Of a stretch of 64,000 nucleotides of DNA, positions 3,096 to 50,677 are shown one piece after another (position 1 is the stretch's first letter; each line of letters opens with the position of its first letter). The stretch is from positions 4,649,501-4,713,500 of the forward strand of contig NC_009523.1 of the NCBI RefSeq assembly GCF_000016665.1, written 5' to 3'. Below the pieces are notes generated by a model. That model was not told the origin of the DNA. It worked only from the letters and a program-made list of their open reading frames with translations, and made no database searches. The position numbers and the translations under genes were made by a program. Source of the stretch: Roseiflexus sp. RS-1 (GTDB lineage: Bacteria; Chloroflexota; Chloroflexia; Chloroflexales; Roseiflexaceae).

Positions 3096-3352
3096 GGTTG
3101 TACTAACAGAGACATTGAGGCATTGAGGTGTTGATCGGATCGCCTCCCGCCGCCGCCACTGCTCCCGCTGCCGGCACGGGCGCAGCAGCGCTGCGCCTCT
3201 CCGCTGCCTCTCGCCGCCACCCCCGCCATTGCTCCTGCTGCCGATACGGGCGCAGCAGCGCTGCGCCCCGTTGCCTCTCGCGCCTCATCCCCTCGCGCCT
3301 CTCCCACTCTCAGTTCTTGGTTCCTGGTTCTCGGTTCCTGGTTCCTGGTTCT
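3096..3352. repeat. Low-complexity intergenic block with 70-bp-period direct repeat and heptamers
   Basis: No gene is seen here. A segment of about 45 bp (3153-3197) recurs at 3223-3267 with a few changes; both contain GGGCGCAGCAGCGCTGCGCC. Pyrimidine-rich CCTCTCG-like units follow. From 3311 to 3352 there are exactly six heptamers of the form (C/T)(A/G)GTTC(C/T), the reverse complement of the AGAACC(A/G) units found beside tRNA-Ser. The array ends four bases before the ppk1 stop codon. Confidence 0.8.
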
Positions 3353-3355
3353 CCC

Positions 3356-5482
3356 CTACCGCGGCGTCATATTATCGCGGCTGAGGAACGCCTGACTATC
3401 GAACGGCGCCTCGCCTTCGGGCGGGCGGGCGCGCACATATGAACCATCGGGCATCAGAATGCGTGCACGCGACGTATCCCGCAAATACACATCGAGCAGT
3501 TGACGAATCTCCGCTTTCAAAGGCTCAGACTCGATGGGGAACAGTGTCTCGACGCGGCGGTCGAGGTTACGTTCCATCAGGTCGGCGCTGCCGAGGTAGA
3601 TATCTGGATTGCCGTTGTTCGCAAAGTAGTAGATGCGACTGTGCTCAAGGAAACGCCCGACGATACTGCGCACAGAGATGCGTTCGCTCAAGCCTGGCAC
3701 TCCGGGGCGCAGGCAGCAGATGCCGCGCGCGATCAACTCAATAGTTACGCCTGCCTGAGAAGCCCGATAGAGGAGATCGATAATCTTTTTATCGACGATT
3801 GCGTTGCATTTGAAAATCAGATGCCCCTGCCGTCCCGCCTGCGCGTGGGCGATCTCGCGTTCGATCAACGCTTCGAGACATTCGCGCATGCTCACCGGCG
3901 CGACGAGCAGTTTGCGATAGTGCCGCTGACGCGAGAAACCGGTGAGATGGTTGAACAGTTCCGATACATCGGCGGCAATATCGGGGCGCGCCGTCAACAG
4001 ACCAAGGTCGGTATAGATGCGAGCGGTGGTTGCATTATAGTTGCCGGTGCCGAGGTGGACATAACGGCGCAAGCCATCGTGCTCGCGGCGAACGATCAGC
4101 GCCAGTTTGGCATGCGTTTTCAGCCCGACCAACCCATACACGACGTGCACACCCGCGCGTTCGAGTTGTTTCGCCCAGATGATATTGTTCTCCTCGTCGA
4201 AGCGCGCCTTCAACTCAACCAGCACGGTCACCTGCTTATCCTGCTCGCGCGCGTGCATAAGCGCCTTCACGATTGGCGAATTCGACCCGACGCGGTAGAG
4301 CGTCTGCTTGATCGCCAGCACATTCGGGTCCTCAGCAGCCGCCTGGATCAGCGATACCAGCGGCTGGAAGGAGTGAAATGGATGGTGCAACAGGATATCG
4401 TGTTGACGAATCGCAGCGAAGAGTTCCTCACTGCTGCGCGCGTTCTGCAACGGCGCAGGGGGTATCGGGTAGAACGGCGGATCTTTCAGGTCGGGGCGGT
4501 CAATTTTCGTCAACTGCATCAGATCCGACAGACCGAGCGGTCCACGCATCTCATACACGTCGTCGGGGGTCAGTTTCAGATTGGTGAGCAACAGATTGCG
4601 CACCCGTTCCGGCATCGAGTGCTGCACCTGCAGACGCACAACGGCGCCAAATCGTCGCTGACGCACCCCTTCTTCGATCACGCGCAGCAGATCGTCCGCC
4701 TCTTCTTCCTCGATTTCCATATCGGCGTTGCGCGTAATGCGGAACAGATAGCATTCGACGATCTCCTCGCCGGGGAAGAGCGATGCGACATTGGCGGTAA
4801 TGATCTGTTCGAGCCAGGTGAAGCAGTAGCGTCGTTCCGGTGGAATATCATCCGGAGAATCGCACAGACCGCCTTCGATTGGCACCAGGCGCGGCAGCAC
4901 TGCTGGCACCTTGACGCGCGCAAAGAGTTCGCCCTCATCCGGATCGTGGATCACCACTGCAAGATTCAGGCTCAGGTTTGAGATATGCGGGAATGGATGC
5001 GCCGGATCGATGGCCAGCGGCGTCAGAACCGGAAACACCTCACGCTCAAAGTATTCGGCGCATGCTGCACGTTGCGCTGGCGTCAGTTCGTGGTAATCGA
5101 ACACATGAACGCCCTGCTCATGCAACTTCGGCTTGATGTCGTCGAGCCAGCAGGACCGATGCTGCTCAAGAAGCGGAATAACGACGCGGCGAATGGCGTG
5201 CAATTGTTCAGATGGGGTCAGCCCGTCCGGTGAGCGACTGGCGACGCCGGCGGCGATCTGTTGCTTCAAGCCCGCGACACGGATCATGAAGAACTCATCG
5301 AGGTTGGTGCTGAAGATCGAAAGGAACTTCACGCGCTCCAACAGCGGATGGCGCTCGTCCATTGCTTCTTCCAGCACCCGGCGGTTGAATTCGAGCCAGC
5401 TGAGCTCACGATTGAAGTATGGCGAAGCAGCGCTCAGAAGTGCCATATCATTCTCGATCGTCTCAAAAGCAACACTCGTCAT
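3356..5482 (-). CDS. ppk1: Polyphosphate kinase
   Basis: Reversible transfer of ATP gamma-phosphate onto polyphosphate. At 708 residues it is full length for PPK1. The N-terminal domain (FNRELSWLEFNRRVL) is followed by the middle domain and the two phospholipase-D-like C-terminal domains. The autophosphorylated histidine lies in RYVHLGTGNYN and the second conserved histidine in GRFLEHSRIYYF. The frame is open to 5512, but the ATG at 5480-5482 has AAGG eight bases upstream, so the shorter start is preferred. That Shine-Dalgarno lies in the loop of a perfect hairpin (5483-5500). No ppx neighbour is present; the gene appears monocistronic. Confidence 0.95.
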   Translation of the reverse strand: MTSVAFETIENDMALLSAASPYFNRELSWLEFNRRVLEEAMDERHPLLERVKFLSIFSTNLDEFFMIRVAGLKQQIAAGVASRSPDGLTPSEQLHAIRRVVIPLLEQHRSCWLDDIKPKLHEQGVHVFDYHELTPAQRAACAEYFEREVFPVLTPLAIDPAHPFPHISNLSLNLAVVIHDPDEGELFARVKVPAVLPRLVPIEGGLCDSPDDIPPERRYCFTWLEQIITANVASLFPGEEIVECYLFRITRNADMEIEEEEADDLLRVIEEGVRQRRFGAVVRLQVQHSMPERVRNLLLTNLKLTPDDVYEMRGPLGLSDLMQLTKIDRPDLKDPPFYPIPPAPLQNARSSEELFAAIRQHDILLHHPFHSFQPLVSLIQAAAEDPNVLAIKQTLYRVGSNSPIVKALMHAREQDKQVTVLVELKARFDEENNIIWAKQLERAGVHVVYGLVGLKTHAKLALIVRREHDGLRRYVHLGTGNYNATTARIYTDLGLLTARPDIAADVSELFNHLTGFSRQRHYRKLLVAPVSMRECLEALIEREIAHAQAGRQGHLIFKCNAIVDKKIIDLLYRASQAGVTIELIARGICCLRPGVPGLSERISVRSIVGRFLEHSRIYYFANNGNPDIYLGSADLMERNLDRRVETLFPIESEPLKAEIRQLLDVYLRDTSRARILMPDGSYVRARPPEGEAPFDSQAFLSRDNMTPR

Positions 5483-5500
5483 CGCAACATCCTTGTTGCG
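5483..5500 (-). promoter_or_regulatory. Hairpin presenting the ppk1 ribosome-binding site
   Basis: CGCAAC and GTTGCG form a perfect 6-bp stem around the loop AAGGAT, on the minus strand, ending one base before the ppk1 ATG. The Shine-Dalgarno core AAGG is in the loop. This could expose or occlude initiation. Confidence 0.5.
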
Positions 5501-5689
5501 TATACTTCTCAATGATACGCAATCGTCTCGATCCGGTCGCCATTGGGCGTTGAGGTTTTGATGATCCAGTTCAACAGTATGGCGCGTTGTTCGAGGAACA
5601 CGATAGTGTCAGTATACCATTGTGGATAGCAGGGGCGCAACCGTGAGATTAACAAAGTGGCGGAATACGCCATAACAACGCGCCCCCCG

Positions 5690-5789: not shown

Positions 5790-5866
5790 GACTCTGTAGC
5801 TCAGCGGATTAGAGCGCTTCCCTGCGGAGGAAGAGGTCGGGCGTTCGAATCGCCCCAGAGTCGCCA
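5790..5866 (+). tRNA. tRNA-Arg, anticodon GCG, CCA encoded
   Basis: A full cloverleaf can be folded: acceptor GACTCTG/CAGAGTC, D-arm GCTC/GAGC, anticodon stem CTTCC/GGAAG, T-arm GGGCG/CGCCC with loop TTCGAAT, discriminator G at 5863 and CCA at 5864-5866. The 7-base anticodon loop is CTGCGGA, placing GCG at 5824-5826 (reads CGC). Most bacteria decode CGC with an A34 (inosine) tRNA-Arg instead. Confidence 0.93.
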
Positions 5867-5924: not shown

Positions 5925-6014
5925 GGGGAGGTGACGGAGCGGTTGAACGTGCTCGTCTCGAAAACGAGTTGGGTCTGAAAGCCCACGTGGGTTCGAATCC
6001 CACCCTCCCCGCCA
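5925..6014 (+). tRNA. tRNA-Ser, anticodon CGA, CCA encoded
   Basis: Class II tRNA with a long variable arm. Acceptor GGGGAGG/CCTCCCC, anticodon stem CTCGT/ACGAG with loop CTCGAAA (anticodon CGA, reads UCG), T-arm GTGGG/CCCAC with TTCGAAT, discriminator G at 6011 and CCA at 6012-6014. The next base begins a heptamer array. It is probably co-transcribed with the tRNA-Arg 58 bp upstream. Confidence 0.93.
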
Positions 6015-6105
6015 AGAACCGAGAGCCGAGAACTGAGAACCAAGAACCAAGAACCAAGAACCAAGAAGCGAGAACTGAGAACCGAGAACTGAGAACTGAG
6101 AACAG
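6015..6105. repeat. Thirteen perfect-length heptamers, AGAACCA/G/TG family
   Basis: Thirteen consecutive 7-bp units of the form AGAAC(C/T)(A/G), with two variants (AGAGCCG, AGAAGCG) and a final AGAACAG, start on the base right after the CCA of tRNA-Ser. The period never slips. The reverse-complement form occurs at 3311-3352. Confidence 0.95.
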
Positions 6106-6187
6106 GATCAGGGGTTATGGGTTAGATCGCTTGATGGAATCTGCAACCCGTTTCCTGTACAGTCCTCACTTCCTCGACCTCTGTGTT

Positions 6188-6631
6188 TAACCTTCAACCT
6201 TCAATGCTCCACCTTCAACCTTCAACGTTCAACGCTCCAACCTTCAACGTTCCACCTTCAACGCTCCCGCCTTCAACGTTCCACCTTCAACGCTCCACCT
6301 TCAACGCTCCACCTTCAACGCTCCCACCTTCAACGCTCCCACCTTCAACGCTCCACCTTCAACCTTCAACGTTCAACGCTCCCACCTTCAACGTTCAACG
6401 TTCCACCTTCAACGCTCCACCTTCAACCTTCAACGTTCAACGCTCCCGCCTTCAACGTTCCACCTTCAACGCTCCCACCTTCAACGTTCCACCTTCAACG
6501 CTCCCACCTTCAACGTTCCACCTTCAACGCTCCCACCTTCAACGTTCCACCTTCAACGTTCCCACCTTCAACGTTCAACGTTCAACGTTCAACCTTCAAC
6601 CAATGTGCCAACCTTCAACCTTCAACCCCCT
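6188..6631. repeat. Large heptamer-type array, CTTCAAC / GTTCAAC / GCTCCAC mixture
   Basis: About 440 bp made almost wholly of CTTCAAC, GTTCAAC, GTTCCAC and GCTCC(C)A(C) blocks. Long open frames here on the plus strand encode only repetitive peptide and are not genes. The array ends next to the 3' end of the DUF1405 gene. No promoter or other signal is evident in 6106-6187. Confidence 0.93.
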
Positions 6632-6642
6632 AACCTCTCCCA

Positions 6643-7323: not shown

Positions 7324-7561
7324 GTTCAACTTTCAACCCACAACCTTCAACCTTCAACCCACAACCTTCAACCTTCAACCTTCAACTTTCAACCCACAAC
7401 CTTCAACCCACAACCTTCAACCTTCAACCTTCAACTTTCAACCCACAACCTTCAACCTTCAACCTTCAACCTTCAACCTTCAACTTTCAACCCACAACCT
7501 TCAACCTTCAACCTTCAACCTTCAACCTTCAACCTTCAACCTTCAACGTCCACCGTTCAAC
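7324..7561. repeat. Heptamer array, CTTCAAC / TTTCAAC / CCACAAC
   Basis: About 34 units with strict 7-bp periodicity over most of 238 bp. Only the first three bases of the unit vary; the last four bases (CAAC) are nearly fixed. The array overlaps the last codons and stop of the acyltransferase gene on the minus strand. Confidence 0.95.
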
Positions 7562-8172
7562 ATTCGCACCGGCACTCCGCCGACAAACGCTCCCGGCGGC
7601 ACATCACGGTTCACCAGGCTCATCGCCGAGACCGTCGCGCCATCACCGATCACGACACCCGGCAGGATCGTCGTGTTTGCGCCGATGGTTACGTCCCGTC
7701 CGATCCAGACCGGTCCGCGGCGCCATTCATGACGGGTGAATTCGTGACAGAGGATGGTTGAATTGTAGCCGATGATGCAGTTGTCGCCAAGGGTGACATC
7801 CTGCGGGAAAAAGATATCGAACATAACCATCAGACCAACCGAGACGTGGCTGCCGACCCGCATACCGATCAGGCGGTAGAGTGCGTTCTTGAGCGCCAGT
7901 GATGGCGTGTATCGGGCGATCTGAATGATCAGCGCATTACGCGCGACGCGCAGGTGACCGCCGGTGACGCGCGGAAAATACCAGAGCGCGTTGTGCGGTC
8001 CTGGCGATGGTGCGATGTGCAATCGCGCCTTACGCGCCGCACTGCTTCCCAATCCATCGGGACCGGGCGCCGGGAGCGACGGCGCGTTGATGCCAGCGAC
8101 TGGCGTCAGAGGCGGCATGATCGGGTGTGGCAGGGCGGATGTTTGTCCGGCAATGTCGAACGATTCGTCCAT
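7543..8172 (-). CDS. Hexapeptide-repeat acyltransferase (LbH family)
   Basis: Left-handed beta-helix acyltransferase of 209 residues, of the maltose/colanic-acid O-acetyltransferase type. Residues 1-60 are a Pro/Ala-rich, probably disordered leader, and hexapeptide repeats run from about 100 to 200 (VTLGDNCIIGYNS, VWIGRDVTIGANT, VVIGDGATVSAMS). The active-site-like His lies in LCHEFTRHEW. Such enzymes acetylate sugars or glycolipids; the acceptor is unknown. Six bases separate it from the cyclophilin gene upstream, so the two are probably co-transcribed. The stop codon lies inside a GTTGAAG heptamer, so the repeat array touches the coding sequence. Confidence 0.85.
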   Translation of the reverse strand: MDESFDIAGQTSALPHPIMPPLTPVAGINAPSLPAPGPDGLGSSAARKARLHIAPSPGPHNALWYFPRVTGGHLRVARNALIIQIARYTPSLALKNALYRLIGMRVGSHVSVGLMVMFDIFFPQDVTLGDNCIIGYNSTILCHEFTRHEWRRGPVWIGRDVTIGANTTILPGVVIGDGATVSAMSLVNRDVPPGAFVGGVPVRMLNGGR

Positions 8173-42846: not shown

Positions 42847-45036
42847 ATGAGTGACATGCAAATCTCCGGTTATCAGAGCGCTATTAATGCGCGGCATTAT
42901 ATCCAGTTCGCTGGCGGCGGGCGCGGTCCGGGCAATCCGGGTGGCGGGCGCGGTCCGGGCAATCCGGGCGGCGGGCGCGGTCCGGGCAGTCCAGGCGGCG
43001 GGCGCGGTCCGGGCAGTCCAGGCGGCGGGCGCGGTCCGGGCAGTCCGGGTGGCGGGCGCGGTCCGGGCAATCCGGGTGGCGGGCGTGGTCCAGGCGGCGG
43101 GCGCGGCGGTGGGCGCGGCGGCGACGGTCGCCGCCGTGATGAGAGTTTTGTTGAAAATGAAGGGGGGCGCGGCAATCGGAGCGGACGTACGACCAGCACC
43201 GCGACAACCGCGCGTACTCCGGGCGGATTGGCGCGTCCGACAACCACTGTGCGCGCGCCTGTGCGCCCGAAAGGACCGATCGCGCTGCCAGTGACAATGA
43301 CGGTGCGCGAGTTCTCGGAGGCGACCGGCGTCGGCGCTTCTGAGATTTTGAAGGCGCTCCTCAAGGCTGGCGTGGTCGCTAATATCAATCAGCAGATCGA
43401 CTATGAAACCGCTGCGGTGATTGCTGCCGATTTCGGCATCGAGACGGTCGAATATGTGCCGCCGCAACTGGAAGGGGTCGTTGAGAATATCCGCGATGTG
43501 CTGGCTGCACAAGATCCGAAGGATATGAAACCGCGCCCGCCGGTTGTCACCATTATGGGTCACGTTGACCACGGGAAGACGAAACTGCTCGACGCGATCC
43601 GTTCAACACGGGTGGCGGAGAGCGAGGCTGGCGGCATCACGCAGCATATCGGCGCCTATCAGGTTGAATTGCACGGACGGAAAATCACCTTCCTTGATAC
43701 GCCAGGGCACGAAGCGTTCACTGCAATGCGCGCGCGCGGCGCCCAGGTGACCGATATCGTGGTGCTCGTGGTTGCTGCCGACGACGGGGTGATGCCGCAG
43801 ACGCTGGAGGCGATTTCACACGTGAAAGCGGCGGGCGTGCCGATGATCGTGGCGATCAATAAAATTGATGCGCCCAACGCCAATCCGGATCGCGTCCGCC
43901 AGCAACTCGCCAACGCCGGTGTGATTGTCGAGCAGTTCGGCGGCGATGTTCCATCGGTTGAGGTATCTGCCAAACTGAAGAAGAATATCGATGGGTTGCT
44001 CGAGATCATTCTGCTCGTCGCCGACCTGAATGAGTACAAGGCGAACCCCAACGCGCCAGCAGTCGGAACGATTATCGAAGCCGAAATGGATCGCACGCGC
44101 GGTCCGGTGGCGACCGTGCTGGTGCAGAACGGGACACTGCGCCTGGAAGATAATGTGCTGGTTGGAAGTACGACCGGCACGATCCGCACAATGTTCAACG
44201 ATGCGGGAAAGCGTCTGCGTTTCGCCGAACCGGCAACGCCGGTGGTCATTCTTGGTCTGCATGATGTGCCGCAGGCGGGCGATATTTTGCAGGTCATGCC
44301 CGATCTGGCGGTGGCGCGCGAGATTGCGCTGCAACGACAACGCAAGCAGCGCCTCGAAGCCATGGCAACCTCGCGCGGCGTCAGCCTCGATGGACTGTTC
44401 AGTTCCATCCAGCAGGGAAAAATCAAAGAACTGAACATCATCCTCAAGGCGGATGTCCAGGGGTCGATTGGCGCAATCGAACATGCCCTGAGCCAGCTCA
44501 ACACCGATGAGGTGCAGATCAGGATTATTCATCGCGGCACCGGGACGATCACCGAGAGCGATGTGAACCTGGCGATTGCCTCCCATGCGATCATCATCGG
44601 CTTCAATGCCCGCCCCGATCCGGCGGCGCGCCGGCAGGCTGAACAGTACGGCGTCGATATCCGGTTCTACAATATCATCTACCAGTTGACCGAAGACATC
44701 AAAAAGGCAATGATCGGTATGCTGGAACCGGAGTATCGTGAGGTGACCGAAGGATTCGCTGAGGTGCGCAATACCTTCCGCCTCCCAACCCGTGAGATTG
44801 TGGCGGGTCTGTATGTGACCGAGGGGAAGATTTCGCGCCAGTACAATGTGCGTGTTCTGCGGAACGGCGTTGTTCTGCACGACGGGAAGATCGCCAGTCT
44901 GAAGCGCTTCAAGGATGATGTGCGCGAAGTGCAGGCGGGCTATGAGTGCGGCTTGATCGTTGAAGGGTTCAACGATATTACGCCCGGCGATACGATGGAG
45001 TTCTATCGCAGGGAGCGTGTGGAACGAACAGTATGA
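42847..45036 (+). CDS. infB: Translation initiation factor IF-2
   Basis: 729 residues. After 22 residues there are six exact-length copies of a nine-residue repeat (GGGRGPGNP or GGGRGPGSP, residues 23-76) and a Gly/Arg run to about 90; then IF2N ([22 protein letters not shown]), the GTPase domain with G1 [11 protein letters not shown]3 DTPGHEAF, G4 NKID, and domains II-IV. The GTPase delivers fMet-tRNA to the 30S subunit. The usual charged N-terminal region is replaced by the Gly-rich repeat. The DNA repeat (27 bp) produces long open frames in all phases. Overlaps rbfA by 4 bp. Confidence 0.96.
42913..43074 (+). repeat. 27-bp tandem repeat within infB
   Basis: Six 27-bp units plus a partial seventh, nearly identical at DNA level (GGCGGGCGCGGTCCGGGCA... 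form). They encode GGGRGPG(N/S)P. Confidence 0.9.
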
Positions 45037-50177: not shown

Positions 50178-50677
50178 CGCTCAAATGCAGCAACCTGGAG
50201 CGGTGATCCGCAGTATCGGCGAATCATTTCCAAACGACCACGGATCTGCTCTTCCACAGTGATGATCGTCACTGCTACGCTGTCGTCGTTACCAAGTGCC
50301 TGATGGTCTTTGAGTAATTATTCCGCTATAGCCCGCGCAGGCGGGCTTCGCCTTGCCTGGCCAAGGGCTTATGGTCTTTGAGTAATTATTCCGCTATAGC
50401 CCGCGCAGGCGGGCTTCGCCCTGGCTAGCCGAGGGCTTATGGTCTTTGAAGAAATAATCCGGTATAGCCCGCGCAGGCGGGCTTTGCCTTGGCTAGCCGA
50501 GGGCTTCAGCCCCACGGCTAGCGCGGGATAGCGGATTTATTTCTCAATCTCCATCAGCCCCACGGCTAGCGCGGGATAGCGGATTTATTTCTCAATCTCC
50601 ATAAGGCGTTGCATGATCACCGGATGAGCACGTTGCTGGAGCGAAATGTGATCGGTGTCGAGGATGTAAAGCGTCAT
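50178..50677 (-). pseudogene. PIN-domain (VapC-like) toxin gene, split by repeat elements and truncated
   Basis: The intact start overlaps the antitoxin stop (ATGA) and reads MTLYILDTDHISLQQRAHPV through QRL (50603-50677, 25 codons). It then runs into a 116-bp element that supplies a TAA after five codons. On the far side (50302 downward) the frame resumes as QALGNDDSVAVTIITVEEQI, then RGRLEMIRRYCGSPLQVAAFER, which is the central PIN segment with VEEQ. The two halves join in frame if 50303-50602 is removed. The C-terminal third is missing: the sequence passes into the permease 3' end. Identification as VapC rests on LDTDHIS and TVEEQIRGRL. Confidence 0.85.
50303..50602 (-). mobile_element. 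Cluster of 116-bp elements: two truncated, one complete, plus a 48-bp duplication
   Basis: Read on the plus strand: truncated copy 50303-50370 (68 bp), truncated copy 50371-50438 (68 bp), complete copy 50439-50554 (116 bp), and a 48-bp repeat (50555-50602) of the last part of the complete copy. The truncated copies all stop at GGGCTT and are followed directly by the next ATGGTCTTTGA start. The whole 300-bp block sits inside the vapC-like gene. Confidence 0.9.

Follow-up and report, generated by a model that had tools for sequence, protein, structure and literature searches.

The array of AGAACYR heptamers directly behind the tRNA-Ser(CGA) gene of Roseiflexus sp. RS-1 is probably an ordinary member of a dispersed repeat family that came to touch the tRNA when the common ancestor of RS-1 (genome G000) and its sister genome, G001, lost the intrinsic terminator behind this tRNA gene. 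We assign this reading a probability of roughly 0.7. The contact with the tRNA is incidental, a small evolutionary accident. By its orientation and order, the array belongs to the convergent protein-coding gene on its other side. The locus lies in a 64,000-nucleotide stretch (positions 4649501 to 4713500, referred to here as the window) of a genome that consists of a single contig of 5,801,598 bp.

The tRNA-Ser(CGA) gene, located with ARAGORN and by sequence, occupies positions 5925 to 6014 on the plus strand of the window, and its encoded CCA lies at 6012 to 6014. Upstream, tRNA-Arg(GCG) (5790 to 5866, plus strand, identified by the same means) also has an encoded CCA, with a GC hairpin behind it. 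The first AGAACCG unit begins at 6015, flush with the CCA of tRNA-Ser(CGA), so that the spacer is zero, as the earlier note had stated. Sequence, TRF, and a shuffle test place the array (designated family B; AGAACYR on the plus strand and YRGTTCT on the minus strand) at 6015 to 6103. The earlier description of thirteen in-phase units extending to 6105 was right about the array but slightly generous in count and end: there are 12 full heptamers and a five-base AGAAC remnant (12.7 copies by TRF), and two of the units, AGAGCCG at 6022 and AGAAGCG at 6064, depart from AGAACYR. The CCA of the tRNA is in phase with the repeat and falls where the last three bases of an AGAACCA unit would lie. Three-unit matches to AGAACYR with no more than one mismatch numbered 12 in the window and 0 across 100 dinucleotide shuffles, which excludes chance as an explanation for the array.

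Behind the family B array, a spacer without repeats (6104 to 6186; delimited by sequence and comparison with relatives) contains AGGGGTTATGGGTTAG. Within it, GGGTTAGATYGCTT matches sequence that immediately follows the tRNA terminator in the relative G004. A second, larger heptamer array that the earlier note did not mention follows at about 6187 to 6628. This family A array, of the GTTGAAS type on the minus strand and C-rich on the plus strand, was delimited by TRF, composition, and sequence. It occupies most of what remains of the 628-bp gap up to the convergent gene, which encodes a membrane protein with DUF1405 (PF07187; 6643 to 7269, minus strand). Read on the minus strand, the order is the stop codon of this gene, the family A array, the 83-nt spacer, the family B array, and the end of the tRNA. 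The stop codon therefore starts a composite, stop-(GTTGAAS)n-(YRGTTCT)n-boundary, that ends at the tRNA. Another family A array, (GTTGAAG)n, at 7325 to 7565 on the minus strand (TRF and sequence), begins at the TGA stop codon of the gene at 7543 to 8172. The array that had previously been noted beside the polyphosphate kinase gene is also real. The gene, ppk1 (3356 to 5512, minus strand; gene call and family model), is followed 3 nt past its stop codon by a family B array (3311 to 3352, minus strand) with AGAACYR on the ppk1 sense strand; this array is shared with G001 and absent in G005. The window also contains other repeats. At 50303 to 50602 there are a 68-bp direct repeat in three copies and a 48-bp direct repeat in two, with TATAGCCCGCGCAGGCGGGCTTCGCC, and a similar stretch stands behind a family A array at genome position 3730669. 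A GC-rich 27-bp repeat (6.8 copies, 94%) at 42913 to 43095 is probably inside a protein gene.

The part of the genome surveyed for arrays comprised 2.46 Mb (42%), included every tRNA, and contained 1894 genes according to a home-made caller. CCA is encoded in all 48 tRNA genes, of which tRNA-Ser(CGA) alone has an array directly behind it (1/48). The heptamer arrays in the sample were of family A (GTTGAAG/C), family B, and a third, CGGCTAT/GATAGSC type that is sometimes embedded in family B arrays (for example, upstream of the gene at genome position 2562572, minus strand). They were mostly intergenic: predicted genes contained 3 of the 46 family B arrays and 18 of the 124 family A arrays. One predicted 1352-amino-acid membrane protein (genome positions 1560538 to 1564593) has long array-encoded insertions with PPSTFNVPPATPDV repeats, and therefore family A arrays can lie in frame within a gene. 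Three-unit AGAACYR matches numbered 456 genome-wide (overlapping counts), and the family was found in all six genomes of the genus. AGAACYR arrays lay within 10 nt after the stop codon at 6 of 1782 gene ends, or at 7, rho among them, when ends near segment edges were included. At the rho stop codon (gene at genome positions 4059452 to 4060777, minus strand), AGAACTGAGAACTGAG begins on the very next base, a contact of the kind seen at the tRNA. At the stop-codon rate (7/1782 within 10 nt) the probability that at least one tRNA would touch an array is 0.17, a figure that, like the other array statistics of the sample, refers to one genome covered at 42% with home-made gene calls and fuzzy array matching. 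Array orientation had no clear relation to genome position of the kind expected from replication-strand bias.

Comparison with relatives, most of them metagenome assemblies, points to the history of the junction. The tRNA-Ser(CGA) orthologues are 97.8 to 100% identical within the genus. A search of the six genus genomes for junctions between CCA and an array recovered only tRNA-Ser(CGA), and only in RS-1 and G001. An intrinsic terminator, a hairpin with a T run, follows the CCA of the same tRNA in G003, G004, G005, G009, and G010, a set of five that comprises three further members of Roseiflexus and two additional relatives that carry this tRNA. The same simple test detected none behind tRNA-Ser(CGA) in RS-1 or G001, a result to be read with the finding that it also detected none at 17 of 37 operon-final tRNAs, so that absence is not rare here. 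RS-1 and G001 are sisters with 100/100 support in a neighbor-gene tree in which the other branches of the genus are unresolved. The distribution of the terminator, together with this sister relationship, therefore suggests that the terminator was lost in their common ancestor and that the junction exists in these two genomes because of that loss. In G003, which like G001 is a metagenome assembly, an AGAACYR array begins 58 nt past the CCA, behind the terminator; its flanking sequences have diverged and align raggedly, and its orthology with the RS-1 array is putative. The unit number differs even between the sisters (about 7 in G001 and 13 in RS-1), and at the same locus G004 has no array and G005 has different repeats. 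The DUF1405 gene adjoins the same tRNA in five relatives. Because this neighbor is the same across relatives, no island has been inserted at tRNA-Ser(CGA); an integrated mobile element at the tRNA 3' end was ruled out by the conserved neighbor gene and the 628-bp gap.

The simplest history is that the terminator was lost through a deletion that joined the CCA of the tRNA to a pre-existing array. Such a deletion would probably have taken place between the CCA of the tRNA and the CCA of an AGAACCA unit, with 3 bp of microhomology, and selection on the tRNA would have halted it at the CCA. Microhomology and selection would account for both the phase of the array and the missing spacer, so no tRNA-directed mechanism is needed. 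The alternative is that the array inserted at or grew from the tRNA 3' end, as the earlier note suggested, with the CCA perhaps serving as target or primer (for example, for a recombinase or reverse transcription); the zero spacer and the in-phase CCA speak for it. However, we regard it as very improbable. The other 47 tRNAs have no such contact, the same family is dispersed over many sites, some stop codons also abut an array directly, and the neighbor gene is unchanged in relatives. The restriction of the junction to RS-1 and G001 likewise argues against tRNA-directed insertion. The earlier note had held that a related genome with the same tRNA and array separated by an ordinary spacer would speak against its suggestion, and in G003 a 58-nt spacer that contains the terminator stands between this tRNA and an array of family B, which largely refutes growth or insertion at the CCA. 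What survives of the idea of the tRNA end as a boundary is passive: a deletion going further would damage the tRNA. It has also been proposed that the array serves as a tRNA trailer. As a description this is likely to be correct, since, with no terminator remaining, the trailer probably opens with the array. The stronger version, that the array is retained because it governs 3' processing or takes the terminator's place, can draw on the persistence of the junction in both sisters despite their different unit numbers and the missing terminator, but we consider it unlikely. The array is predicted to be unstructured and has no terminator features, the recent common ancestry of the two genomes means that its persistence does not prove selection, and no other tRNA uses an array.

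Loss of the terminator leaves the question of how transcription of tRNA-Ser(CGA) ends. At its rut sites, upstream of the point of release, Rho prefers RNA that is unstructured, rich in C, and poor in G; a rho gene is present in the genome (652 bits). From 6187 to 6640 (454 nt), the plus-strand RNA of the family A array has 45% C and 7% G, and one 78-nt segment of this downstream array has 41 C and 5 G. Judged from this composition, and less firmly than the terminator loss, Rho would with moderate likelihood end tRNA-Ser(CGA) transcription in the C-rich family A array. Family A arrays as general sense-strand Rho sites were rejected because their C-rich strand is usually antisense to genes; the idea fits only transcripts arriving from the opposite side, such as that of the tRNA. 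In the predicted fold of the trailer the first 50 nt are unpaired, and stability is not above that of shuffled sequences (z = -0.69). Because of this predicted lack of pairing, the AGAACYR trailer would be open to the usual 3' nucleases, which would remove it. Two other tRNA trailers, at genome positions 1732065 to 1732138 (minus strand) and 4173039 to 4173122 (plus strand), have terminator stems (GAGAATTGAG / CTCAATTCTC and similar) that resemble family B units beside inverted copies, a resemblance that may be due to chance.

The composite at the tRNA follows a layout that is general and polar in the 42% sample, in which GTTGAAS arrays tend to begin at stop codons and YRGTTCT arrays tend to end 0 to 10 nt before start codons. 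Contacts within 10 nt of stop codons in the sample comprised 29 sense and 5 antisense family A arrays and 1 sense and 6 antisense family B arrays. At start codons the corresponding numbers were 2 and 0 for family A and 14 and 0 for family B. Compared with random placement in the same gaps, family A was in excess at 3' ends (38 versus 14.1 expected) and family B at 5' ends (12 versus 3.2 expected). Where a family A and a family B array are neighbors no more than 200 bp apart on one strand, A precedes B in 13 of 13 pairs, the tRNA locus included (binomial P = 0.0002); the contact counts, the placement excess, and this order overlap and are not independent tests. Genes adjacent to family A arrays end in TGA in 27 of 29 cases, and the GTTGAAS unit itself contains TGA. 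It might be argued that the start contacts are an artifact of gene calling, but two lines of evidence oppose this. In a test that requires no caller, ATG outnumbered GTA 67 to 20 at 0 to 6 nt past the ends of family B arrays in the six genus genomes (P = 4e-7). Furthermore, matches to the TrpC, TyrS, mevalonate kinase, and LivF-like family models start at residues 1 to 5 of the proteins, which makes those four array-adjacent starts credible. A Shine-Dalgarno core was found in only 1 of the 14 genes with a family B array at the start, one of which has a TTG start within the array region that may be miscalled, compared with 49% of all genes (P = 0.002). The Shine-Dalgarno sequence is missing because the array fills its place, which by itself is no sign of function.

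With tandem heptamers at many loci, the Roseiflexus arrays fit the dispersed intergenic heptanucleotide arrays of bacteria, and we know of no agreed function for bacterial heptamer satellites. In Escherichia coli, the rtT repeats behind tyrT are also tandem and directly at a tRNA 3' end, but their units are about 178 bp and include tRNA sequence, whereas the Roseiflexus unit is 7 bp with no tRNA sequence beyond CCA. Chloroflexus aurantiacus belongs to the same order as Roseiflexus. Like Roseiflexus it has a dispersed heptamer satellite family, (GATAGRA)n, but with a different unit, and the portion of its description considered here does not report gene-boundary polarity (PMC6749651). The CGGCTAT/GATAGSC family of RS-1 resembles these satellites. 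Marine Beggiatoaceae have intergenic TAACTGA arrays, many of them immediately ahead of start codons, for which a role in translation was proposed (PMC4679880). Family B arrays similarly stop just short of start codons, and do so in a single orientation (14 sense versus 0 antisense). However, the Roseiflexus units are YRGTTCT and GTTGAAS rather than TAACTGA, and Roseiflexus has a second family at stop codons, a fixed A-B order, and one array touching a tRNA. The dispersed intergenic arrays of 2 to 26 heptamers in Xanthomonas and Nostoc are G-rich (PMC4692102), and their G runs can form quadruplexes. Neither AGAACYR nor GTTGAAS has this capacity; no run of G occurs in either strand of the AGAACYR unit. 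Our literature search found no description of the Roseiflexus heptamers, and one may exist elsewhere. Dispersed heptamer arrays are already known; the GTTGAAS/YRGTTCT unit pair with its division of labor between stops and starts seems to be new.

One interpretation of the arrays is that they arise by slippage, are neutral, and expand through intergenic space until they reach sequence under selection, be it a tRNA, a stop codon, or a start codon. This interpretation is compatible with terminator loss as the origin of the junction and competes only with a functional reading of the arrays. The change in unit number between the sisters and the rapid turnover at the locus in G004 and G005 favor it, and we regard it as a serious contender at somewhat less than even odds. 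However, it leaves unexplained why family A lies in sense orientation after stops and family B in sense orientation before starts, why the A-B order is 13 to 0, and why contact rates exceed those of random placement. A functional reading is possible, if doubtful: the two strand-polar families may mark gene ends, with family A at stops and family B at starts, where it would replace the Shine-Dalgarno sequence and act in translation or as a one-way transcription filter, and the array at the tRNA would be the end of one stop-A-B composite. (GTTGAAS)n carries a TGA every seven bases and hence stops in all three frames. The pattern at gene boundaries carries more weight than the tRNA contact alone, and the strand-specific, ordered placement at core genes (trpC, tyrS, the mevalonate kinase gene, and the livF-like gene) means that a role in translation or termination can be tested directly.
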